36,282 nucleotides of DNA from the NCBI GenBank assembly GCA_027318475.1, contig DAHVPC010000010.1, positions 1-36,282 of the forward strand, written 5' to 3'. This document shows positions 7,812 through 32,439 of this stretch, piece by piece. The position numbers were made by a program, and so were the translations under genes. The number at the start of each line of letters is the position of its first letter. Position 1 is the stretch's first letter. This stretch comes from Candidatus Cloacimonadota bacterium. Lineage in GTDB: Bacteria > Cloacimonadota > Cloacimonadia > Cloacimonadales > Cloacimonadaceae. The notes beneath the pieces are model-generated. The model worked only from the letters and a program-made list of their open reading frames with translations, did not search any database and had not been told where the DNA came from.

Positions 7812-8615
7812 TTATTTAAAGACGCTCCAATCGCTTAGCCAGCCCCAGGAAACACCGATTCCCGGCTTTACTTTGACATTTTCGTCAATTGGGATCAAGC
7901 GGATCACGACTTCTGGGGTGAGCATACAGTATTTACCCCGGAATTGGAAATTCACCCCAACCGAGCCGGTAAATACATCCGCGGTGCCCAGGTCCCGGGT
8001 TGTCTCTATGGCGCCCCACCCTCCATAACGCCCCCTCAGGTGCATTTTGTTATGGGCATAAGTCGCTTTGGCGCAGGCATTAAAGGTGATCTTAGGGTAT
8101 GGATGTTTGGCGCTGACCGGGAATTTATGGGTCCAAATGACCGGAAGTTCCGCGCCCAAGGCCTGGGAGTTGAGTGTGTGTATATACCACAACTTCACCG
8201 GATAGTAATTCAGGTCCAGTCCTCCGGAAGTTGAAATAAATCCAGGGCTCAGGGACAGGATGTTTTCCCCCTTGCGCAGCAGCACCTGCTTCCAGTTCAG
8301 TTTCGCGGCTACCCCATGTTTGGACAGGTATCCGCACAGGCCCAGTTCGCCATCGGAATACACCCTGAGTTTTACGTTCATTCCCACTACCCTGCCGGTG
8401 ATCCTGTCCTGGTCTAATTCGCTGATTTGATAGAGTTCATCTGTGATCAAGTTGCCCTGGTTTTCCAGAGGGACCGCAGGGCCGACAAATAAACTCACTC
8501 CGCTGAGTGGTTCCGCGCTTTCCAGAAAGTAACTGGGCAGAGCGGAAAAAGCGCCCAACGTGATACTTGCCGCACCCATCAAAAGGCAGGCCAACAGACA
8601 TTTGAACCTATGCAT
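7812..8615 (-). CDS. Predicted outer-membrane or periplasmic protein, paralogue 2 of 3
   Basis: 267 aa with a signal peptide (MHRFKCLLACLLMGAASITLGA). It is a close paralogue of the next gene upstream (8773-9558): both open MHRFKxLLACLxxGAASITLGAxSAL, and both contain FLESAEPLxGxSxFxG, KLNWKQV, RKGxNILSLSPG, ELPVIWTHKFPV, FNACAKATYAxNKM, LGTADVFTGSVG and LTPExVIRLIPI. The ribosome site and first codons are also nearly identical in DNA (GAGGAGATGCC then ATGCATAGGTTCAAA), which indicates duplication of the whole gene. Predicted beta-rich and exported; no known domain recognised. Confidence 0.78.
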   Translation of the reverse strand: MHRFKCLLACLLMGAASITLGAFSALPSYFLESAEPLSGVSLFVGPAVPLENQGNLITDELYQISELDQDRITGRVVGMNVKLRVYSDGELGLCGYLSKHGVAAKLNWKQVLLRKGENILSLSPGFISTSGGLDLNYYPVKLWYIHTLNSQALGAELPVIWTHKFPVSAKHPYPKITFNACAKATYAHNKMHLRGRYGGWGAIETTRDLGTADVFTGSVGVNFQFRGKYCMLTPEVVIRLIPIDENVKVKPGIGVSWGWLSDWSVFK

Positions 8616-8772: not shown

Positions 8773-9558
8773 TCAGTCTCGTTCAAAGGCATTCCTATCG
8801 CTGAGCCAGGCCAAGGAAACGCCAAACCCCGGCTTGCCTTTGAACTTGTTATCACCAATGGGAATCAAACGGATCACAAGTTCTGGAGTAAGCGCCCAGT
8901 GTTTACCTCTGAACTGAATGTTTCCGCCAACCGAGCCGGTAAAGACATCCGCGGTGCCCAGGTACCGGGTTTCGTGATCAGGGGACCACGATTTATCCTT
9001 TCGGAACATCTTGTTCCTGGCATAGGTCGCTTTGGCGCAGGCATTAAAACTGATTTTCAATTTTGGATCGTCAGCGATGACAGGGAACTTATGGGTCCAA
9101 ATGACGGGTAGTTCCACTCCCCATGCTCTAGAGCGCAGTTCATCCCAGAACCCTAAATTCAGTTTTCCAGATGTAATAAAAAGTCCCGGACTCAGGGACA
9201 GGATATTGTCCCCCTTACGCTGCACCACCTGTTTCCAGTTCAGTTTCGTGCCTGCCGAATATCTGGACATGTATTCGCACAGATCCAGTTCAGCTTCCGA
9301 GTATATCTTTAATCTTATATTCAATCCCACTATACTACAAGAAATCCTGTCTTCGTCAAGCTGGTCATATTTAGAGAAATAGCCCGGGATCAAGTCTTCT
9401 TGGTTTTCCAAGGGTACCCCCGACCCGATGAAGAAACTTAGCCCGGTGAGCGGTTCCGCGCTTTCCAGAAACGAACTGTGCAGAGCGGACATAGCACCCA
9501 GCGTGATACTTGCCGCACCGATTACAAGGCAGGCCAGCAGACTTTTGAACCTATGCAT
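8773..9558 (-). CDS. Predicted outer-membrane or periplasmic protein, paralogue 3 of 3
   Basis: 261 aa from the ATG at 9558. The track extends to 9669, but the 37 extra codons carry no signal peptide, whereas MHRFKSLLACLVIGAASITLGA is a clear one and is preceded by GGAGGAGATGCC, a strong ribosome site. It is a tandem paralogue of 7812-8615, roughly half the residues being identical by eye, and a distant relative of 5995-6813. Shared blocks are KLNWKQVVQRKGDNILSLSPG, ELPVIWTHKFPV and RYLGTADVFTGSVGGNIQFRGK. The function is unknown. The spacer to the next gene downstream (157 bases) may hold a separate promoter, so the copies may be expressed independently. Confidence 0.78.
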   Translation of the reverse strand: MHRFKSLLACLVIGAASITLGAMSALHSSFLESAEPLTGLSFFIGSGVPLENQEDLIPGYFSKYDQLDEDRISCSIVGLNIRLKIYSEAELDLCEYMSRYSAGTKLNWKQVVQRKGDNILSLSPGLFITSGKLNLGFWDELRSRAWGVELPVIWTHKFPVIADDPKLKISFNACAKATYARNKMFRKDKSWSPDHETRYLGTADVFTGSVGGNIQFRGKHWALTPELVIRLIPIGDNKFKGKPGFGVSLAWLSDRNAFERD

Positions 9559-9660
9559 GGCATCTCCTCCGTGTCCGGATAATCTGGACGGATCCGGGCG
9601 CGATCTGAGCGTCTGGGGCGGGCAATGCCAAAACCTCTGAGCTTGCCCTACTCCGCTGCC

Positions 9661-9689
9661 AGAATGCACGTAGTTTGTTTTTAAGTCAA
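9661..9689 (-). promoter_or_regulatory. Possible promoter of the 9558 gene
   Basis: TTGACT (9689-9684), a 17-base spacer and CATTCT (9666-9661) on the minus strand, about 100 bases before the start codon. The -35 box is good and the -10 box partial. Confidence 0.35.
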
Positions 9690-9830: not shown

Positions 9831-9928
9831 GCCCTTGGGGGTTAGCCTTAATCAAGTGTCTATCAAGCCTCAATCACTTCTCAATAATTGACGCTTGATT
9901 GACTAGTGATTGACAAGTGATTGACTGC
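9831..9928 (+). repeat. 98-bp palindromic element of 11-bp units, copy 1
   Basis: The core (9847-9925, 79 bp) divides exactly as three 11-bp units (CTTAATCAAGT, GTCTATCAAGC, CTCAATCACTT), a 13-bp palindromic centre (CTCAATAATTGAC) and three 11-bp units in the opposite sense (GCTTGATTGAC, TAGTGATTGAC, AAGTGATTGAC). It could fold into a long imperfect hairpin. On the left it is preceded by GCCCTTGGGGGTTAGC and on the right followed by TGC. Both flanks recur in inverted orientation around copy 2 at 32342-32439, giving two elements of exactly 98 bp. Confidence 0.85.
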
Positions 9929-10036
9929 TAGAAGCGGGGCTCAGGTAGGAGATCAGTAAGGGGAAAACAGGCAATAAATATGGTTAATTAATTATTGGAC
10001 AGGAAAATACAGAATTACAGCGGACGCAATTGAGGC

Positions 10037-18390: not shown

Positions 18391-18430
18391 GCCGCGCGGA
18401 GGCTTTTGGGACTGAGGGTAAGAGGTCTGG

Positions 18431-18517
18431 CCCCCATTATCATTGCGCCGTCATTGCGCGGTCATTACGGGTAAAGCGCGCAATGACCGCGCAATGACCG
18501 CGTATTGATCATGGGAG
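18431..18517. repeat. GC-rich palindromic element of 11-bp units
   Basis: Left arm: CCCCCAT then units TATCATTGCGC, CGTCATTGCGC, GGTCATTACGG. Centre GTAAAGC. Right arm: GCGCAATGACC, GCGCAATGACC, GCGTATTGATC then ATGGGAG. The arms are inverted repeats of each other, with three 11-bp units per side as in the elements at 9847 and 32345, but the unit sequence differs. It lies between the DUF486 gene and the terminator of the C25 protease gene and may also act as a transcription-end hairpin for the plus-strand genes, although no T-run follows. Confidence 0.8.
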
Positions 18518-18572
18518 CGGTCTGCGGGTATCGGATCTAACCGCCTCCTCCTATTATTTAACTTAATCCCAC

Positions 18573-18654: not shown

Positions 18655-21600
18655 TTACTTGGCAGGCGGATTGTTCACCGCCTGCACCCGGTAAAAGGCC
18701 CTATCGGTTACTTCGGTGTCCAGATAGGAGGTTTGCGTGGTTGTGGCGATCCAGGCGAAGGTTCCATAAGGATGGGAGGACCGGTAGATCATGTATTCGC
18801 TTGCGTTGGGAACGGCAGCCCAGGATAAGGTAAGGCCAGACGCTGATCCCACGACTTCGCCGACAACTGGTGTGGCCAGGGCGGTGAGGTTCACGGTGAC
18901 GGGAACGGTGTCCGAAACCTCGTCCATGCCATCGCTGACGGTGAAGGTGAGAGTTTCTGTCCCGAACCATCCGGGTGCCGCACTGAAGGTCACGACGAGG
19001 CCGTTAACGCCCACCAGAACGTTCGTATTGCCGCTATAGTCCAGGATCAGGGCCTGGTTGTTGGCGTCGTTCACATAGGGATCGAAATCGACCACGAGGC
19101 TGCCATCCATGTTGAAGGAGAAAGAATCAGGCAGCTCGATCGTCGACAGGCTGTTGTTGACCAGGAGCTCGATCGCTACTTCCAACTGGGGGTTGGCGGG
19201 ATCGTTGGTATCCACGAGGAGCGTTGTCTGGAAGTTGCCGGGTATCAATCCAGCGGCTGAGAAGGAACCGGTGATGAGTTGGTTTCCACCCGCGGGAATG
19301 GATCCTGTTAATGGGGCGGCGCTGAACCAGTTCACGGCCGGGGATTCGGCCAGGGTGAAGCTCAGGGCTTGGCCGCCGGTGTTGCTGATCGTGAACGAGT
19401 CCGTGCCTTGCTGGCCAAAGTCCAGGGTCGCGGAAAGCGTGGTTTCGTCCAGCGAGACCACAGGCGGGATGTAACCGGTTCCGGTGAGGTTGATGTACAT
19501 GACGGGATTGCCGCTGTCGTTGCTGTTGATCACCACATTGCCGTTGTAGGCTTGGGCTGCTGAGGGCGCGAAGGTGAGGCTATAGTTCTGGGACATGCCG
19601 GCAGCGATGGCAAAGGCAAGCGTGTTGCGTTCCGGGTTGGCTGTCCTGGCTCCGTTGACTGTTTGAGCCCGGGTTCCAGCCAATTCCGCGACGGTGTAGC
19701 CAGCCGGAGTGGTGATGCTGCCCGAAAGCTCGGCGGTACCGGAGTTCTGGATGGAGAACTGCTGGATGGCATTGCCTCCCACCACTACGTCTCCGAAGGG
19801 GATGGAGGCAGGATTCACGCTGATGTCCGGGCCGGTGACGATCGGCTGGAAAGCCAGCTTGACGTTGTAGCGCCGGTTAGCTTGGTAACCGCCCGTGAAG
19901 ACATTGGTCTGGTCAGCCACATCGCTGTAGGTAAAGCGGTATCCGCTGGTAACCGTTGTGTATTGCAGGGTTCCGGAGTAGTCCCAATCCTGAACCAGGT
20001 TGAAGGCGGTATCGATCAGGAGGTTGTCGGTTCCATTCCACTGGAAAGGAGTGGAGAAGCCCAGCATTTCGTATCCGCCGGGAGTTGGCATATACGAGGG
20101 GTTGCTGTATACTGTCACCAGATTGTCCGCGCTTTGCCAGACCGCGACGTTGGAGGCGGTCGTGTGCTTGATCCGGACGACGAAATCCGCCAGATTGTAG
20201 ATGGGGGCGGAGATCACGTTGAAGCCCAACTGGGTGATCAGGGCCGGCCCCACGATACCCGCGGCGTTAAGTTCCGCGGCTGTGTAGACCGACTGGCCGT
20301 GGTTGCTGCGGTCCGAAATGTTGATCGGGGCGTTTTGCGAAGTGGTGCTCACGGATGTTCCGGTTCCCAGGATCACGAAGGTGGTCTGATCCGGAGTTGC
20401 GGAGGCTGTGTTCGAGGGTTCGGATTCCCCGGTGGGATTTGCATAGACCGTGGTCACATGATAGGAGTAGGTCACACCGTTGGTCAATCCGCTATCCTGG
20501 TATGTTGTTCCGGCGAGGGTGGTGATCGGCGCTCCATCGCGATAAACGCGGTAACCGTCGATCGTGCGTTCGCTGGAACTGCCCAGAGTTAGCGCTGAAC
20601 GCCCATTGGCGGCGGTCCAGCTGAGATTTACCACCGACGCTCCGGCAACTGCTGTGAGGTTCGTAGGCGGATAGGCGTTGGGCGTGGCGGTCACGATGGG
20701 AGTGGGATCGGATTCACCATCAGGATACACTGCTGTCAGGAAATAGCCGTAACTGATTCCGTTGGTAACGGCGAGGTCGGTGTAGGCCAGGCCGGTCACA
20801 GTGGCTAGATATGTGGCGTTGCGGTAGACCTTGTAACTGGTGGGAACTCCGGAAGCAGGCTCCGACCAGGTCAGGCTTACTGATTGGTGGCTGGCTGCTG
20901 CGGCAAGGTTTTGCGGCGGCTGGAGAGCTTCGAAATCCGGGAAGATCTTGAGGCGCATGTTGGGCAGGTTGGGCGTTGCCAGCAGGTTGGTGGGCGGAGT
21001 ATAGTCGTCGCGGTTCTGGCGGGTTCGGCTTGGAGTGACCGGAGTATAGGTCCACAAGGGGTAATTGTTTATCCACTGTTGGTTGCCTTTCACGATGAGG
21101 ACGGCGAGGTTGGAAACGCCATCGTAGACAAACATCGGGCTTAAGTTCACTTCCATCCAGCCAGATGCTGCGTTGTTGGGGAAGGATCCGCTGTAAACCT
21201 GGGTGTAACCGGTCGTGCTGTAGTTTCCGGCAGAAATCGACGCGGCGGTTGTGTGTTTCATGTAGATGGTGACGGGAGTGATTGGATTGACATCGTCTCC
21301 GCTGGCTTTGTTGAAGGCGATGGCCTTGATCGTTCCGGCTGTGGTGAGTTCAGAAGCCAGGTAGATGGCCTCGTTGACGCAGTAGTTGTAGTAGCGGTCC
21401 AACGGATAGGATTGGGTGCTGGTGCCGTTCCCGATCAAGATCTGCAAAGGCGCTCCAACTTCGATCGTATTGGTGGCGCTGGCAGTCGTGGAACCGGCAA
21501 CCGCGTTGAAGTTCAGGTAAACCAGGGTTCCGTCCGTCATGGATGAGGAAGCGCTGATGCTGAAGGAGAGGGTTTCGTAGGCTCCAACTGCCAGAACGGG

Positions 21601-24600
21601 GAAACTGTCTGTGCCAGTATTGATCGTTATTCCCGGGGTTGAACAGGTCAGGATGGCTGAGCCAGCCGGAGAAGGGATCATGCCAACATTGTTCAGATGG
21701 ATGGTAACGGACGCGGTTTCGCCAGGATCGAGAATGCCGTTGTGATCGCCCACGGTATCGATTACAGTCATGTCGAGGAAAGAGAGTTCCGGCACCACGA
21801 CTTCCAAAGTGAAGGTGTAGGACCAGTTTCCAGTGGCGCTGCTGATATTGAGGGTGAAGGGGATCTCATGGCCGGCGGGACAGCTGGCCGAAACGCTCAC
21901 CGAGAAATTGGTGACTGGGTAGGCGTTACCTTGCGCCAGAATCGTTCCGTAAAAAGCGTTGGCATTGTTGACGGTCACATAGGGATCGGTGGAACTGAGC
22001 ACGGCGGCGACGTTGGTGGCATCCACCAGGCCGCGATTGCCCAGACGGATCGAGAGGGCTGAAGCTTCGCCCGGTTCCAGATAACCGTTGGAATTGGGAT
22101 CCTGCACAAGAACCTGCTCGATGGCGACGTAGGGGTAGTCCGGAATGAGCGGGCGGGTGGTGATGAACAGCGATTTCAGGCTGGAAAGGGGCGCTGCGGC
22201 TGTGGGATAGCTATTGTTGTAGGTATATTCCAAGCCGATGGTTTCGGTGTGGTCTTCGATGCCAATGGTGCAGTAGTTGCCGTGGGGATATTGGTCTCCA
22301 TCGCCTAGGTCGATGTTGTGGAAGTCCTTGTATTGCAGTTTGATCTGGCCGTCGCCGGTATGTGTGGGGTAAAACACCGGATCGTAGAGGATGGCCTGGA
22401 AGGTTTGCTGCGTGCTGCCATCATAACCAGAGATCATGTGGTACCATTCCACCACATAATAATGTTGCGCGGAGTTGTAGTAAGTGTACACATAGCTGGT
22501 GCCGGATACGATATCCAGGTCGTCCCACATCACAGCGATCATTGGGCTGGGACCGCCGGCATCGGGTAAACGCCAGTTGCGCCAGTCGGCATCGGAATGC
22601 TGACCGAAGGCGATGAAACCGTTGGAAGAGATGGAGGCCTGGGTGTAATTCACGCCGTAGTACTGGAAAGCGAAAGGCAGGTTGACTGTCGTGATCGCCA
22701 CTGCGCCCACCTGGTCGCCCTCATCAGAGGCGCTGCCTGGATCCGTCAGAGCCAATGCCGTACCGCTGCCTCCTTCTGCTGGAGCGATGCCGATCCATTG
22801 GTAGGTGGGGCACTGGTCGTAGCTTGTGTCGCCCTGGTCGAAAATGAAGTATCCATAAGCGTCCTGGCCCAGCGGATCGGTAACCGAAGTCTGGCCCAGC
22901 GTTACGGTGAAGGGGATCGTTTGAGAGAAGCCCGTGCTGTTGAACAGATACAGTTCCAGCGGGATGACCATGCCATCCAGGCAAGTGCTTCTGGCAAAGA
23001 TTGTAAATGTGTCGGTTGTGTTGGTAATGGTGGCGCCCTGGTTCACATCGCCCAAATAGGCCAGGGAATCCGGCACGGTGAAGAACATGTCTTGCGAGCG
23101 CAGTCTGGCGTTTACCCCGGTCAAACCAAGCAAGCCGGAATTGGTCATGGTAACGGTCATGGGGTATTGGTCGCCCGGATTGACTATGTTTCCGGTCGAA
23201 CCTTGGAATGTATAGGATTGCAACGTCAGTATGCCATTTCGAACCGAGACTGTGACGGGCAGGGTCCAGTTTCCGGCGCTGCTCTCCACAGCCCAGTCGA
23301 TGATGATCTGGTGTCCATTGGGGCAATCGCTGGCGATGCTGAAGATCACGGGATTGTCGCTCAGGCCGGTGCTACCGGGCGCGATGGAGTTGTATTCGAT
23401 GCGATCGGAACTGAGAATGGTTACCCAGGGATCGTTACAGGTGGCCGCAGCGCTGAGCAACAAGGTCGAAGTACTGGTGTTGTGCAGACTCACGTAGAGT
23501 TCGATCGTCTCGCCCGGATTGGCTTCGGCGTTCTCATTGCCGCTGGACTGTCCGCTGTTGTCGTCGTCCAGGATCATATCGTCGTACACGGCTCCACCTG
23601 CGCTATTGATGGTGATAGAGGACGCCGCGCTCTTGAAATCGTCCTTGCTGACAGTCAGGGTCAAACTCCCGGCCAGAGAATAAGTGTATCTGAGGAGGGC
23701 GCTGCCTGAGGCATCGGAAAAGGTGGTGAAATGGGCTCCGGAACTGTGCAGGAGTGTCACTGAAGCGCCCTCAACGGGGTTGTTGGCGGCGTCGCGCACG
23801 GTGACTTCCAGGCTGGTGTTGCCAGCGGGGACAGAAGACGGGGCGGTGATGCTGAACGTGTTAGGAATGCCAACGTAAACCCTGGCTGTGGGATCGCCGA
23901 TGATGTTGCAGAATCCGGCGAAATTGTAAGCCTGGGTGGCGTTGCTAACTCCATAGACAGCGTTCAAGTATAGTTTTCCGTAGAGCATTGCCTCGGCCAT
24001 GTCACGCATTTCCAAAGGATAAACGCCATGGAAGATGCCTACGTTAAGGCAGTTGTTCATCGGAGTGTGCGTGGAGGAGGTGGCCATTCCTATGGCAGTT
24101 ACGGAACCGCCCAACGCGGCTTCCGAACCATACCTGACGATGGATTCTGTAGTGGCGGTGCCGCCGCCCCAGGAACCGGTGTTGCAGGTGATGAACACCG
24201 CATGGAAAAGCCGGTATCCGTTGTTCAGGGAACCCATCGAGGAAGGCCAGCCGCTCATGCCAATGTAGCCGCGGTAATTGTAAAAAGCAACTCCATTAGG
24301 GGGATTGATGGCGGCATTGATGGTCGTCGAACTCGGGCTGGAGCCATACAGCTCTGTGTAGGTATAAGCAGGATTGACCAATGAGGCGGACTCATGGATG
24401 TACTGGTTGGTGTAGATGGTGGAGATACCAGAGGAGGAAGTGTCGCCGACCAACACCATTTTGTTCAGCCAGGAGGCTGTGCTGATATCCAGATTCTTTT
24501 CCAGGGAGTTGATCTTGGCCATGTAGTTGTTCATTTGTTCGGTGGATGAGACCGAGATTCTGCCGATGATCACATCTCCCAGGTTGTCACCGCCTGCCAG

Positions 24601-25542
24601 CCAGGTATAATAATAGTCCATATAGGTATTGTAAGTGGGGACCGCGATGGTGCCCGAATCGTCTCCTATCAGCACGATGTAGTCCGGCCGGGTGGAAAGG
24701 ACGTTATACTGGTTTTGTATATAGGTCTTGATCGCCGTGTAGGAAGTGCCGGCTGTGGCGGTGCTGACGGCGCTGACCAGGAAACCCCGCTGGCGCTTCC
24801 AAGCCACGTACTCGTTGACCTTGGCCAGGTAAGTGGCGTCGCTGTAATTGCCATAGATAACCAGCATTCTGGGGTTGGTGTAGTCGGTTTCGCGGTTCAT
24901 AAACTCGTCATAATTGATGATCAAGCCGCGGTAGATCCGCTCGAAGGAACTGGAATAATTCTGGGGAGGGGCGATCTCGTTGACGGAAGGCAGATCGTTG
25001 AAATCGATGCGGAAATCCATGCTTTCGCGCACGACCAGCTGTTTGTTGGCTTGATCGTATTGGAAGGGATAGATGTTAATGGCGACCACGCGGAAATCGC
25101 GGATCACTTGCGGCGTGGAGATCAGGACCTGGTCCGAGGGATACAGGCTGTGGCTGTATCTGCCCGCGGAACGTTCCCTGGCCAGGGAAGCGTCAAAATC
25201 TAGCTTGACCTTGTCCTGGTTTTGCTGCCGGCTGTCCAGCAGGTTGAGCGTTACGCCCCCGCTGTAAGGAATTGCCACCAGAGTGGTGAAGACCGGCAGG
25301 GTCTCCTCTTCGTCGATGAAGATATATTGGGCATCGGCGATGCTTATCTTCTGCAAGCTTTCGCCATCGCGCTCTACGTTTTCCAGCTTCCATTCCGGGA
25401 GTTCAAAGTGGAGTTGGATGCCGTCGCTGGTTGAGCGCGCGATGCTGAAGGACGCGGGTCCCGGCGTGTTTTGGGCAAACAGAACAGGGGGGACAAGTGA
25501 CACTATGGCCGCAATTATCCATATCAGCCTGATTGTTCTCAT
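18655..25542 (-). CDS. Large secreted gingipain-type (peptidase C25) multidomain protein
   Basis: 2,295 aa from ATG 25542 (GAGGAAG ribosome site; signal peptide MRTIRLIWIIAAIVSLVPPVLFA). The track start adds 61 unlikely codons. Order: C25 propeptide (about 25-205); C25 catalytic domain (about 210-560) with YIVLIGDDSG, GRISVSS, NYRGYIGMSGW and ITCNTGSW (Cys453); an Ig-like module (560-650); several CARDB-like domains; a propeller/nidogen-like region (about 885-1130: FAFQYYGVNYTQASISSNGFIAFG); a GNGTSTQSYPL domain (about 1366-1535); two FnIII (1536-1715); a VILGTGTS domain (1720-1898); choice-of-anchor-D domains; an Ig-like domain; and a final FnIII ending RAFYRVQAVNNPPAK. The expected catalytic His is Tyr426, so activity is uncertain. 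Its C-terminal half is homologous to that of the S8 protease upstream. Probably secreted by a T9SS-like route, although no FlgD-type tail is present. Confidence 0.87.
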   Translation of the reverse strand: MRTIRLIWIIAAIVSLVPPVLFAQNTPGPASFSIARSTSDGIQLHFELPEWKLENVERDGESLQKISIADAQYIFIDEEETLPVFTTLVAIPYSGGVTLNLLDSRQQNQDKVKLDFDASLARERSAGRYSHSLYPSDQVLISTPQVIRDFRVVAINIYPFQYDQANKQLVVRESMDFRIDFNDLPSVNEIAPPQNYSSSFERIYRGLIINYDEFMNRETDYTNPRMLVIYGNYSDATYLAKVNEYVAWKRQRGFLVSAVSTATAGTSYTAIKTYIQNQYNVLSTRPDYIVLIGDDSGTIAVPTYNTYMDYYYTWLAGGDNLGDVIIGRISVSSTEQMNNYMAKINSLEKNLDISTASWLNKMVLVGDTSSSGISTIYTNQYIHESASLVNPAYTYTELYGSSPSSTTINAAINPPNGVAFYNYRGYIGMSGWPSSMGSLNNGYRLFHAVFITCNTGSWGGGTATTESIVRYGSEAALGGSVTAIGMATSSTHTPMNNCLNVGIFHGVYPLEMRDMAEAMLYGKLYLNAVYGVSNATQAYNFAGFCNIIGDPTARVYVGIPNTFSITAPSSVPAGNTSLEVTVRDAANNPVEGASVTLLHSSGAHFTTFSDASGSALLRYTYSLAGSLTLTVSKDDFKSAASSITINSAGGAVYDDMILDDDNSGQSSGNENAEANPGETIELYVSLHNTSTSTLLLSAAATCNDPWVTILSSDRIEYNSIAPGSTGLSDNPVIFSIASDCPNGHQIIIDWAVESSAGNWTLPVTVSVRNGILTLQSYTFQGSTGNIVNPGDQYPMTVTMTNSGLLGLTGVNARLRSQDMFFTVPDSLAYLGDVNQGATITNTTDTFTIFARSTCLDGMVIPLELYLFNSTGFSQTIPFTVTLGQTSVTDPLGQDAYGYFIFDQGDTSYDQCPTYQWIGIAPAEGGSGTALALTDPGSASDEGDQVGAVAITTVNLPFAFQYYGVNYTQASISSNGFIAFGQHSDADWRNWRLPDAGGPSPMIAVMWDDLDIVSGTSYVYTYYNSAQHYYVVEWYHMISGYDGSTQQTFQAILYDPVFYPTHTGDGQIKLQYKDFHNIDLGDGDQYPHGNYCTIGIEDHTETIGLEYTYNNSYPTAAAPLSSLKSLFITTRPLIPDYPYVAIEQVLVQDPNSNGYLEPGEASALSIRLGNRGLVDATNVAAVLSSTDPYVTVNNANAFYGTILAQGNAYPVTNFSVSVSASCPAGHEIPFTLNISSATGNWSYTFTLEVVVPELSFLDMTVIDTVGDHNGILDPGETASVTIHLNNVGMIPSPAGSAILTCSTPGITINTGTDSFPVLAVGAYETLSFSISASSSMTDGTLVYLNFNAVAGSTTASATNTIEVGAPLQILIGNGTSTQSYPLDRYYNYCVNEAIYLASELTTAGTIKAIAFNKASGDDVNPITPVTIYMKHTTAASISAGNYSTTGYTQVYSGSFPNNAASGWMEVNLSPMFVYDGVSNLAVLIVKGNQQWINNYPLWTYTPVTPSRTRQNRDDYTPPTNLLATPNLPNMRLKIFPDFEALQPPQNLAAAASHQSVSLTWSEPASGVPTSYKVYRNATYLATVTGLAYTDLAVTNGISYGYFLTAVYPDGESDPTPIVTATPNAYPPTNLTAVAGASVVNLSWTAANGRSALTLGSSSERTIDGYRVYRDGAPITTLAGTTYQDSGLTNGVTYSYHVTTVYANPTGESEPSNTASATPDQTTFVILGTGTSVSTTSQNAPINISDRSNHGQSVYTAAELNAAGIVGPALITQLGFNVISAPIYNLADFVVRIKHTTASNVAVWQSADNLVTVYSNPSYMPTPGGYEMLGFSTPFQWNGTDNLLIDTAFNLVQDWDYSGTLQYTTVTSGYRFTYSDVADQTNVFTGGYQANRRYNVKLAFQPIVTGPDISVNPASIPFGDVVVGGNAIQQFSIQNSGTAELSGSITTPAGYTVAELAGTRAQTVNGARTANPERNTLAFAIAAGMSQNYSLTFAPSAAQAYNGNVVINSNDSGNPVMYINLTGTGYIPPVVSLDETTLSATLDFGQQGTDSFTISNTGGQALSFTLAESPAVNWFSAAPLTGSIPAGGNQLITGSFSAAGLIPGNFQTTLLVDTNDPANPQLEVAIELLVNNSLSTIELPDSFSFNMDGSLVVDFDPYVNDANNQALILDYSGNTNVLVGVNGLVVTFSAAPGWFGTETLTFTVSDGMDEVSDTVPVTVNLTALATPVVGEVVGSASGLTLSWAAVPNASEYMIYRSSHPYGTFAWIATTTQTSYLDTEVTDRAFYRVQAVNNPPAK

Positions 25543-25750
25543 AATACTTCCTCTATAGATTGTAATAAAATTGTTACCTGTCGATTGAAGCAAGTTTCGG
25601 TGCAAACCGGGAGATATCTGCGTGAATTTCACCTGATACCGGGTAACTCTTTGTAAATAATGCTCATGCGAGTGTGTCCCAAACCTTGGCGCTAACCTGG
25701 CTTGGCTGGTAAACGCAGTCACCACGCCATCTGGATCAAGATAATGAGCG

Positions 25751-28700
25751 TCAATCGGAGCCGTTGTTTACGGCAATGATCCGGTAAAAAGCCCGGGGAC
25801 TGTTCTCAATATCCTCGAACGTGGTCAGGGCGGTGGCGGCCACGAAGGAGTACTGGCCATCAGGCTCGGAAGCCCGGTAAATGTGGTATTCCGCGGCATT
25901 CGGAACAGACTCCCAACTGAGTGTGATGCCCGAACCGGAATGGCTGAGTTGAGTGATCAGAGGTGTGGCTAGAGCTGACAGAAAAACCGTAACCGTTACT
26001 GAATCGGCGCTTTGGCCATAGCCATCGCTGATGGTGAAGGTCAGTTCCTCAGAGCCATGCCAATCCTCAACCGCGAAAAATGTGACCAGCAAACCATCGA
26101 TGGTGGGCAGAACATGCGTATTCCCGGCGCAGCCGAGGGTCAGGGCATGGCCGTCCGCATCGCTCACAAAGGGTGAGAAATCCACCGCCAGGCTGTCATT
26201 GATGTCAAAACTGAAGACAGCGGGAAGTTCTATGGACGGCGGATTGTTGGTCACTGTTAGCTGCACGTCCACGTGTTGCAGCGGCTCGAACTGGTCGTTG
26301 GAAGCGATCTGCAGCGTGGTTTGGTGGGTTCCGGGAGCCAGACCAGTGGAGTTGAAGGTGCAGGTGACCGCCTGGTTTCCGCTGCCTGCAATGGTTCCTG
26401 AGACTGGAGAGCAACTGAACCAATCGGCGGTATCGAGTTCCGAGACCACGAAAAGCAGGTTCTGGCTGCCGCTGTTGCTGATCGTGAAATGTGCCTGGGA
26501 ACTCGCCCCGATGGGCAAAACCGCCTCCAGGCTTGTCACGTCGATGTTGATGGTGGGCGGAATGTAGCCGCTGCCGCTCACTGCGATGGCCACGCTGGGA
26601 TTGGCTCCGTCATTACTGGAGATAACCACGTTATCGTTGAAATCCGCGACTGCGTTGGGCGCGAAAGTGAGTTCGTAGGCCTGGCTGGAACCAGCGCCAA
26701 TCGAAAATCCAAGCGTGTTGCGGCCCGAATTGCCTGTCTGCGTCAATGTCGGAGCCGCTGCTGCGGATCTGTCAGCTTCCGCAACTGAGTATCCTGCGGG
26801 AGTGGAGATGGAGCCCGTGAGAGCCAGATCGCCTGAGTTGTCGATAGTAAACTGCCGCACCTGGCTGCTTCCCAGGACCAGGGCTCCAAAAGTAAGTGAA
26901 AGAGGATTCACTTCGATCTGCGGGGCGGGATCCGGATACTGCAAAGTGAGGCGGATGTTGGGACGGCGGTTCCTGACCAGCCCCCCGGTAAAAACATTGG
27001 TCTGATCGGCCACATCGCTCCAAATGAAGCAATAGCCGCTTGTTGCCGCCGTATATTCAAGCGTCCCGGTGTCGCTGGCTGTGGGCACCAAGCCGAAAGC
27101 AGTGTCCACCAGGATGTTGTCCGTGCCGTTCCAGGAGAAGGGAGCGGAGAAGTTCAGCATGTGGTAGCCGCCGCTGACAGGCATGTACGAGGGATTGCTG
27201 TAGGTGGTCGCCAGGCCGGTTGCCGAATGCCAGTCCGCCGCTGAACTTGCGGTCGTGTGTTTCATCCGCACTACAAAGTTGGTCAAGGGCAGGTTTGGCG
27301 ACGTCACCACTTTGAAACCCAGGGCGGTGATCAGGGCTGGACCCACGACACCAGCGGCGTTCAGTTCAGCGGCTGTATAAACCGATTGGCCGTGGTTGCT
27401 GTTGTTGGTGATGCTGATGGGGCTGTTTTGCGCGCCTGTGGTTACGGAAGTTCCAGTACCCAGGATGACTGAGACCGTTGAGCCCGGAGTGGCCTCCACT
27501 GTGGGCGTAGGCGAAGATTCTCCGCCGGTGTAGACTGCGGTCAGATAGTAACTATAGGTGGTGCCGTTCACCACGGCGCTGTCTGTGTAATTCAAGCCAG
27601 AGACCGTGGCGAGCAGAGCGCCGTCCCGGAGTACTTTATAATTGACGGGAGTCCCGAAAGCAGGGACCTGCCACGCCAGATTCACGTAGCCGTTGCCTGC
27701 CAAAGCTGTGAAGTTCACCGGCGGATTATAGGCGGAAAGGGCGTTCAGGGCGGAATTGGCGTTGACCATGCCGTAGCCGGTGTAGCGGTCCCAACCGGTT
27801 CCTCCATCATAGGTCATGTCTGTGGCCGTGCTGGTCATGATGAGGCGCAGTTGCTCGGGTGTCAGCGACGGTTCCTTGGACAGGATCAGGGCCGCGACGC
27901 CCGCTGCATAAGGCGTGGCGCAGGATGTGCCGTTGAACCACATATAGTAGTTCGTGGTTGAGTAGCCGACTGATCCGACCAGGTCGGTAGCGGGTAGGAT
28001 CGTGGGAGCCATGATGTCCACTGCGTCACGGTGGTTTTGGGTGGCGATGCCGTAATTGGATCCCCACCAGTATTCCCCATCCGAGGAAGTGGTGCTTTTA
28101 CGTTGGCCGGTCGGACTGGCAGCGCCAACGCTGATCACTTTATTGTGGTTGGAGGGATAGGCGATGCTGGAGGCGTTGCTGTTGGCGGTGGCGGCGAATA
28201 AGGCCACACCGTGGTTGTAGGCGTATTCGAGCGCTGCGTCGGTTGAGGGTGAATCGCCTTCGACCATTCCGCCTTCCGCTCCGAAACTCATGCTGGCGAC
28301 GTCCACGTTATAATCCCCGGCATGTGTCAACGCGTTCTCGATCGCCGTGAAGCCTAAGTCCCCCGCGGAATTGGCGATCTTGAGGGGCATCACGCTGCAG
28401 CCACCGGCAATGCCCGCCACGCCCAAGGCGTTGTTGGCACGGCCAGCTGCGACTCCGGAACAGGAAGTTCCGTGTCCGGGATCAGCGCTGTCATCCATCG
28501 GGTTGCTGTCGTTATCGCCGTAATCGTAGCCCGGTACGAGGCGCAGATCGGGATGCGTGGTGTCCACTCCGGTATCGATGATGGCGATCACAATGCTGGC
28601 GGAACCGTAGATTTGGGTTTGATCCCAGGCCAGTTGGGCATCCGCGTCGAAACCAATGGTGCCCACGCCAGGTCCGGTATGGCCGCCAGACTGGTAAACA

Positions 28701-29173
28701 GGCAATTGCGCGGTGTTGTTATGCCCCCAGTTGTTGGCGTAATAGGTGTCGTTGGGAACCATAGTGTTGTAGGCGTAGTATTCCGGAATGGCTTCTTCGA
28801 TGAAGCGGTTGGCCTTGAAGGAGGCGATGGCTTGTTCCACGCTGGCCCGGCCATCCAGTTCCACCAGAAACCAGCGGTCCCAGCCAGTCTTTTCCGCCCA
28901 GGCGGTGTCTTTGACCTGGCGATGGGCGCGGATTACCTTCAGGCCGCCGTTGACGCTCATCAGTTGGTCCAGTTCGTTGATCCCGAAGCCAGCTGTTTCG
29001 GCGTACAGCCCCAGGGGCAAGTTGGCGCGCGAAGCCGCCTCGGAAGAGAGTTTTATCTTGATCAGGCTGGCAGCGTACCGGGGACGCTCACCCATGTTTT
29101 GCTTCAATGCCGCAGCAGTCAGCAGACTGGCTGTGAGAGCCAGAACAGATATCAGGAGCAGGATTTTTGGCAT
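25751..29173 (-). CDS. Secreted subtilisin-like (S8) protease with long modular C-terminus
   Basis: 1,140 aa. Signal peptide MPKILLLISVLALTASLLTA, a propeptide to about 130, then a complete subtilase domain: IAIIDTGVDTTHPDL (Asp200), GHGTSCSGVAAG (His234), FAATANSN (oxyanion region, with Thr before Ala-Asn) and FNGTSCATPYAAGV (Ser417). All three catalytic residues are present, so it is probably active outside the cell. After about residue 483: FnIII, a VILGTGTS...NHGQSVYTAAELNAAG domain, choice-of-anchor-D domains (ITVNPLSLTFG-type), an Ig-like domain (IELPAVFSFDINDSLAVDF) and a last FnIII ending RAFYRIIAVNNGSD. This tail is homologous to the C25 protein's tail throughout. The ribosome site (AAGGA) is rather far from ATG. 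Confidence 0.92.
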   Translation of the reverse strand: MPKILLLISVLALTASLLTAAALKQNMGERPRYAASLIKIKLSSEAASRANLPLGLYAETAGFGINELDQLMSVNGGLKVIRAHRQVKDTAWAEKTGWDRWFLVELDGRASVEQAIASFKANRFIEEAIPEYYAYNTMVPNDTYYANNWGHNNTAQLPVYQSGGHTGPGVGTIGFDADAQLAWDQTQIYGSASIVIAIIDTGVDTTHPDLRLVPGYDYGDNDSNPMDDSADPGHGTSCSGVAAGRANNALGVAGIAGGCSVMPLKIANSAGDLGFTAIENALTHAGDYNVDVASMSFGAEGGMVEGDSPSTDAALEYAYNHGVALFAATANSNASSIAYPSNHNKVISVGAASPTGQRKSTTSSDGEYWWGSNYGIATQNHRDAVDIMAPTILPATDLVGSVGYSTTNYYMWFNGTSCATPYAAGVAALILSKEPSLTPEQLRLIMTSTATDMTYDGGTGWDRYTGYGMVNANSALNALSAYNPPVNFTALAGNGYVNLAWQVPAFGTPVNYKVLRDGALLATVSGLNYTDSAVVNGTTYSYYLTAVYTGGESSPTPTVEATPGSTVSVILGTGTSVTTGAQNSPISITNNSNHGQSVYTAAELNAAGVVGPALITALGFKVVTSPNLPLTNFVVRMKHTTASSAADWHSATGLATTYSNPSYMPVSGGYHMLNFSAPFSWNGTDNILVDTAFGLVPTASDTGTLEYTAATSGYCFIWSDVADQTNVFTGGLVRNRRPNIRLTLQYPDPAPQIEVNPLSLTFGALVLGSSQVRQFTIDNSGDLALTGSISTPAGYSVAEADRSAAAAPTLTQTGNSGRNTLGFSIGAGSSQAYELTFAPNAVADFNDNVVISSNDGANPSVAIAVSGSGYIPPTINIDVTSLEAVLPIGASSQAHFTISNSGSQNLLFVVSELDTADWFSCSPVSGTIAGSGNQAVTCTFNSTGLAPGTHQTTLQIASNDQFEPLQHVDVQLTVTNNPPSIELPAVFSFDINDSLAVDFSPFVSDADGHALTLGCAGNTHVLPTIDGLLVTFFAVEDWHGSEELTFTISDGYGQSADSVTVTVFLSALATPLITQLSHSGSGITLSWESVPNAAEYHIYRASEPDGQYSFVAATALTTFEDIENSPRAFYRIIAVNNGSD

Positions 29174-32145: not shown

Positions 32146-32341
32146 AACACCTGCCAAATCGAATTTGCAATTCCATTCCCCTATAAAACCTACTCCAAAT
32201 CAGTCAAGGTTTATTTCGGGATGGCTGCCGGGCAAGCCTGCCTGGCTTTTCACCTTAAAACGGCTCATCTGCCGGAATCCGAGACAAGTCTTTGCCGCAG
32301 CGCAAGTTTCCTGGCCATTCTGCAGTTGGATCCCGCGGGTT

Positions 32342-32439
32342 GCAGTCAATCAAGTGTCAATCAAGCCTCAATCAAGTGTCTATTATAGACGCTTGATTGA
32401 CTAGTGATAGACAAGTGATTGACGCTAACCCCCCAGGGC
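32342..32439 (-). repeat. 98-bp palindromic element of 11-bp units, copy 2 (inverted relative to copy 1)
   Basis: The core (32345-32423, 79 bp) reads GTCAATCAAGT, GTCAATCAAGC, CTCAATCAAGT, centre GTCTATTATAGAC, then GCTTGATTGAC, TAGTGATAGAC, AAGTGATTGAC. The centre is a perfect 5-base stem with a 3-base loop. The flank GCTAACCCCCCAGGGC (32424-32439) is the reverse complement of copy 1's left flank at 15 of 16 positions, and GCA on the other side matches TGC in copy 1. Confidence 0.87.

Follow-up and report, generated by a model that had tools for sequence, protein, structure and literature searches.

Palindromes built of 11-bp units occur between the genes of the uncultured bacterial family Cloacimonadaceae; they are genuine, widespread within this one family, and, as far as could be checked, new. 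They constitute an apparently undescribed class of intergenic repeats of ~90 to 120 bp and most likely represent a REPIN/MITE-like mobile palindrome with an 11-bp ladder that is independent of sequence, whose mechanism is partly supported. A literature search, in which subscription journals were scarcely covered, revealed no description of such palindromes in this phylum.

The window, i.e., the whole stretch of 36,282 nucleotides analyzed here, comes from a Cloacimonadota MAG of 2.34 Mb and contains two elements of family 1 and one of family 2 (Table 1). The 98-bp stretches at 9831-9928 and 32342-32439, from which the sequence-only reading started, are present in opposite orientation, with a 16-bp flank identical at 15 of 16 positions and TGC on the other side; when the GC-rich outer arms are included, both palindromes extend to about the limits listed in Table 1. 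The core, initially divided as 33 + 13 + 33 bp, is instead organized as 33 + 11 + 33 bp in the phase of the units (9848-9924 and 32346-32422). The proposed variation of the units at an AG/CT dinucleotide is genuine, and the proposed pairing of the arms in several registers is supported: the best ssDNA fold has a shifted register in copy 1 and the full register in copy 2, with z scores (DNA parameters) of -3.4 and -9.1, respectively. The same window carries tandem, diverged duplicate genes at 7812-8615 and 8773-9669, with stretches that are 70 to 80% identical, a spacing of ~0.95 kb, and no Pfam match. It also contains a 217-bp repeat (20215-20431 versus 27308-27524; 72% identity), the copies of which sit in two very large adjacent reading frames, 18655-25725 and 25751-29173.

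Table 1. Palindromic elements of the window and their parts
Feature	Position	Strand	Details
Family-1 element copy 1, whole palindrome	9831..9941	.	Centre 9886; gapless in alignment A1
Copy 1, outer left arm, type Y	9831..9847	+	End = GGGGGTTAGCC
Copy 1, left arm, three 11-bp units	9848..9880	+	TTAATCAAGTG, TCTATCAAGCC, TCAATCACTTC
Copy 1, centre	9881..9891	.	11 bp
Copy 1, right arm, three 11-bp units	9892..9924	-	Inverted
Copy 1, outer right arm, type Z	9925..9941	-	End read inward = TTCTAGCAG
Family-1 element copy 2	32329..32439	.	Centre 32384
Copy 2, units	32346-32378 and 32390-32422
Copy 2, centre	32379-32389
Family-2 element	18430..18518	.	Unit type TCATTGCGCGG, 3+3 x 11 bp; 5-bp centre
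Family-2 element, units	18439-18471 and 18477-18509

In the genome that harbors the window, a 13-mer unit pattern of family 1 has 172 matches, compared to 8 for the reversed control, and 42 complete or nearly complete elements, including the two in the window, could be read. Nearly all of these 42 show unit starts spaced 11, 11, 26, 11, and 11, which bears out the assignment of three 11-bp units to each arm. The element is genuine, multicopy, and intergenic, and its 11-bp period is strict; it is neither confined to two copies nor lacking a conserved period, the two outcomes that the sequence-only reading had named as speaking against it. A structure model built on alignment A1, which comprises 43 elements and has no gaps across its 113 columns, detects family 1 in 32 of 50 Cloacimonadaceae genomes, representing 10 of 10 genera, and in none of the 68 sampled Cloacimonadota genomes from outside this family. 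Within one genus, the copy number varies from 0 (G002, G003, and G011) to at least 37. Of the 103 stretches obtained by pattern search in GTDB genomes, 80 were listed; nearly all of these belong to “Candidatus Cloacimonadota” MAGs, and the MAGs labeled Atribacteria and Firmicutes, which contribute two of them, are taken to be mis-binned or misnamed. One exact family-1 core pattern gave no match in viral contigs. An interpretation of single units as DNA-uptake-type sequences was rejected, because the units in the listed matches sit within arrays.

The same build is shared by at least two further families with unrelated unit sequences, all of them ~90 to 120 bp long and present in tens to a hundred copies per genome. 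Family 2 has units of the type TCATTGCGCGG, unrelated to those of family 1 (TCAATCAAGTG), and at least 35 copies in the genome of the window; its asymmetric apex (GGG-AAAGC) allowed orientation of all 23 of the 23 copies examined. Family 3, with the unit TATAACCTTAG, is represented by ~109 copies in the relative G013 and by at most 2 loose matches per genome in the 11 other genomes searched. Three units per arm are found in 166 of the 170 family-1 elements if a single mismatch is tolerated in each core and in 151 of the 170 by a strict count. The fetched DNA was also scanned without supervision, first for strong palindromes and then for their best internal period between 4 and 17; this period is 11 in all 184 of the 184 periodic palindromes of families 1 to 3 and in 12 of the 19 palindromes outside them; the scanned DNA is biased to the surroundings of known elements and Y1 genes, so these counts measure the rule and not the abundance. 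The palindromes outside families 1 to 3 have other unit sequences, for example, TATACAGAAAG, AACAATTCCCT, CCGAGTCTTCA, CCCTTGTCTCA, and CTGCCGCAACC. It is conceivable, if still tentative, that these palindromes form a class of minimal mobile DNA that inherits its geometry, three inverted 11-bp rungs per arm, rather than its sequence, with at least three and probably about ten unrelated units. Such a class would imply a group of recombinases that read one helical turn per subunit, with a specificity that changes from family to family.

The ends of the elements are best seen in family 3. In the 46 copies read, the palindrome is 94 bp long and ends in TCCTCC...GGAGGA, with a sharp boundary: 44 of 46 copies are still paired at position 44, compared to 28% at the following position, 45. 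The inner positions 1 to 22 are the same in 46 of 46 copies, in part because the copies were chosen by an exact match to one arm; at positions 23 to 38, 43 of 51 departures are two-sided. The flanks display a weak, symmetric preference, NRNRNGNA when read outward, and the boundary shows no excess of target-site duplications with a length of at least 3 bp. At the G013 loci L455, L457, L464, and L440, repeated sequences of ~160 to 300 bp adjoin family-3 elements, and their partners across the element differ. Three of the four copies of the ~300-bp repeat adjoin a family-3 element, with unrelated sequence beyond it, and the fourth matches only in part; such junctions may have resulted from one-sided transposition or from recombination between copies.

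The compensatory changes between arms that the sequence-only reading proposed to look for are strong in the middle unit of family 1 and in families 2 and 3 but absent or reversed at the AG/CT dinucleotide of units 1 and 3. The middle unit of family 1 has many two-sided changes (for example, columns 31 and 83 are U-A in 30 elements, C-G in 13, and unpaired in 0), and mismatches are frequent at columns 26/27 and 51. Among the family-1 elements of the window's own genome, positions 6 to 9 from the centre pair below the expectation from composition, an effect of the asymmetric apex (AGCG opposite CTTC) that is frequent in them. The mismatched units, at a guess, limit the stability of the family-1 hairpin. 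Family 2 presents a similar picture, and in both families the covariation score and the number of cells changed on both sides exceed those in 500 of 500 shuffles. One-sided G-U changes are rare in the inner stems of all three families. This shortage of G-T/G-U intermediates suggests that arm symmetry is maintained at the level of DNA rather than RNA. Homogenization of inverted-repeat arms by template switching is an established process (PMC8604942, PMC7202029); it can explain the symmetry, so that RNA is not needed. The outer arms of family 1 are of variable types, and the left and right ends assort about randomly, which indicates that arms are reshuffled between copies. The core positions, in contrast, are nearly invariant, a pattern that might reflect selection for a function in the host and thus speaks against mobility.

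All copies examined for their location are intergenic. When genes were predicted with a simple codon model, 0 of 163 family-1 elements fell inside one, and the count was 0 for every one of the five sets; of the family-2 elements, 22 of 22 tallied are intergenic. The neighbors of family 1 in its own genome are 42 gene 5' ends and 29 gene 3' ends, i.e., about equal numbers with no bias; family 2 leans to 3' ends, and 8 of its 19 two-sided cases are located between convergent genes. No orientation bias was seen relative to GC skew or gene direction. The intergenic DNA of the host is mosaic, with several families of repeats. The repeat AGCCCCGGAGGGTGCGACAGATCATAGC is frequent in the flanks of families 1 and 2 (e.g., L067, L076, L094, and L347), and a ~30-bp motif, TTTTTGGTCAACCTATTTYAGGAYGGGTCA, adjoins most palindromes in G001 and G006 (L264-L293), in most cases on a single side and at times on both sides or by itself. 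The short motif TTYAGGAYGGGTCA is found in two genomes beside most copies; it was rejected as a promoter, since gene orientation gives no support, and as a part of the element, since it can also stand by itself and can lie on either side. Further short palindromes have the form CCCCACCCC...GGGGTGGGG and are present at L335 (5697 and 6711), L063 (3775), L072 (1527), and L096 (4416). Palindromes similar to these follow a GGAACCCCGGGT or GCCCCTCGT motif in the genome of the window, and in G006, an IS200-like tnpA is bracketed by a pair of this type.

The reading that best accommodates these data, with a probability of about 0.58, is that the elements are nonautonomous, REPIN/MITE-like mobile palindromes, the arms of which serve as cooperative arrays for a putative recombinase. 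Mobility is supported by the burst of family 3 in a single genome, the sharp ends, the patchy distribution, and the restriction to intergenic DNA, and it would explain the turnover of palindrome families. Our best guess is that the 11-bp units are cooperative binding sites on one face of the helix. A trans-acting recombinase with a specificity matched to each family would bind these sites cooperatively and bring the two arms together, either as duplex or as an extruded or ssDNA hairpin; the element would then be copied or moved to a new intergenic site with no duplication of the target, and template switching from one arm to the other as the DNA replicates would spread changes to both arms and thereby maintain their identity. 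Target-site duplications are absent in families 1 and 3, in a test that a duplication of 1 to 2 bp would escape. Against this reading, no mobilizer was found: the ~0.84 Mb read, DNA chosen around known elements, contains no solo arms or gene-carrying parent. Nor could an empty site be shown in relatives, as their orthologous upstream intergenic regions do not align.

The alternative that fares best, although it is unlikely, is that the palindromes serve the host as scattered binding sites of a nucleoid or segregation protein, which would polymerize on 11-bp sites as ParR does on its iterons, with the inverted arms bridging or looping DNA. The 11-bp pitch, the near-absolute conservation of the unit cores, the lack of gene-end bias, and a number of sites per genome that ranges from dozens to a hundred would all suit such a role. 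However, family 1 is missing from the near-complete close relatives G002, G003, and G011, unit sequences are swapped wholesale between genomes, and family 3 is a burst within one genome.

A more specific version of mobility, in which the palindromes are REPINs mobilized by Y1 (RAYT or IS200-like) transposases, appears improbable. These enzymes were the leading candidate for the mobilizer because three genomes have related tnpA genes, three in all, each with a palindrome located just past its 3' end, at a distance of 24 to 263 bp; Y1_Tnp genes are present in many genomes of the family that bears the elements, and the absence of target-site duplications is compatible with HUH transposition. Nevertheless, G004, G009, and G014 (93 to 99% complete) have 7 to 9 family-1 elements and no PF01797 gene, and G020, G043, and G048 (99% complete) have 10 to 36 such elements and no homolog of the associated tnpA. 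In addition, several Y1 genes are adjoined by short palindromes of other types, and the elements show no GTAG/CGTC tag, no within-arm hairpin, and no orientation bias relative to GC skew. Thus, one tnpA clade is associated with the palindromes, but Y1/RAYT enzymes were rejected as the mobilizer, given the element-bearing genomes without such a gene.

Least probable are transcribed RNA hairpins acting as terminators, mRNA stabilizers, or small RNAs: one turn of A-form RNA is 11 bp, the predicted folds (DNA parameters) are stable, and family 2 tends to sit between convergent genes, but Rfam has no match above the gathering score, family 1 has neither a T-run in its consensus nor the 3'-end location of an intrinsic terminator, and one-sided G-U changes are few.

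The palindromes reveal a rule for bacterial repetitive DNA that holds across the family and puts structure first, whereby unrelated sequences are amplified on a common 11-bp ladder. The mobilizer, if found, may be a type of recombinase with a new mode of reading DNA, and the ~109 natural copies of family 3, with exact ends in one genome, allow direct study of target choice and arm homogenization.

Several known systems share some of these properties. The plasmid parC iterons bound by ParR are likewise 11-bp tandem sites, but they form one site adjoining their own par operon, whereas the palindromes are dispersed genome-wide in dozens of copies. ERIC/IRU of the enterobacteria, compared here by description only, is an intergenic imperfect palindrome of 127 bp with no known mobilizer and thus resembles the ~120-bp elements; to our knowledge, it has no 11-bp ladder, and its host belongs to a different phylum. 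MITEs (reviewed in PMC10969869) are also short, noncoding, sharply bounded, and high in copy number, with inverted ends. In contrast to MITEs, the elements are almost wholly palindromic and, in families 1 and 3, show no target-site duplication; no parent with the same ends was seen in the ~0.84 Mb read around known elements. REPINs and REP-RAYT systems (Bertels and Rainey 2011, PMC3116915; Di Nocera 2013, PMC3733652) differ in the arms, which here consist of three 11-bp direct repeats without a within-arm hairpin; in the unpaired GTAG or CGTC tag, absent both from the sharp ends of family 3 and from the variable outer arms of family 1; and in the Y1 transposase, which has no consistent counterpart here. 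Nonetheless, REPINs are symmetric and extragenic and carry compensatory changes (PMC3116915), and the palindromes share these features, along with a length of ~100 bp as inverted pairs, tens to hundreds of copies, the lack of a gene of their own, and several families per genus. REPINs and tagged REPs are thus the closest known kind in life-style.
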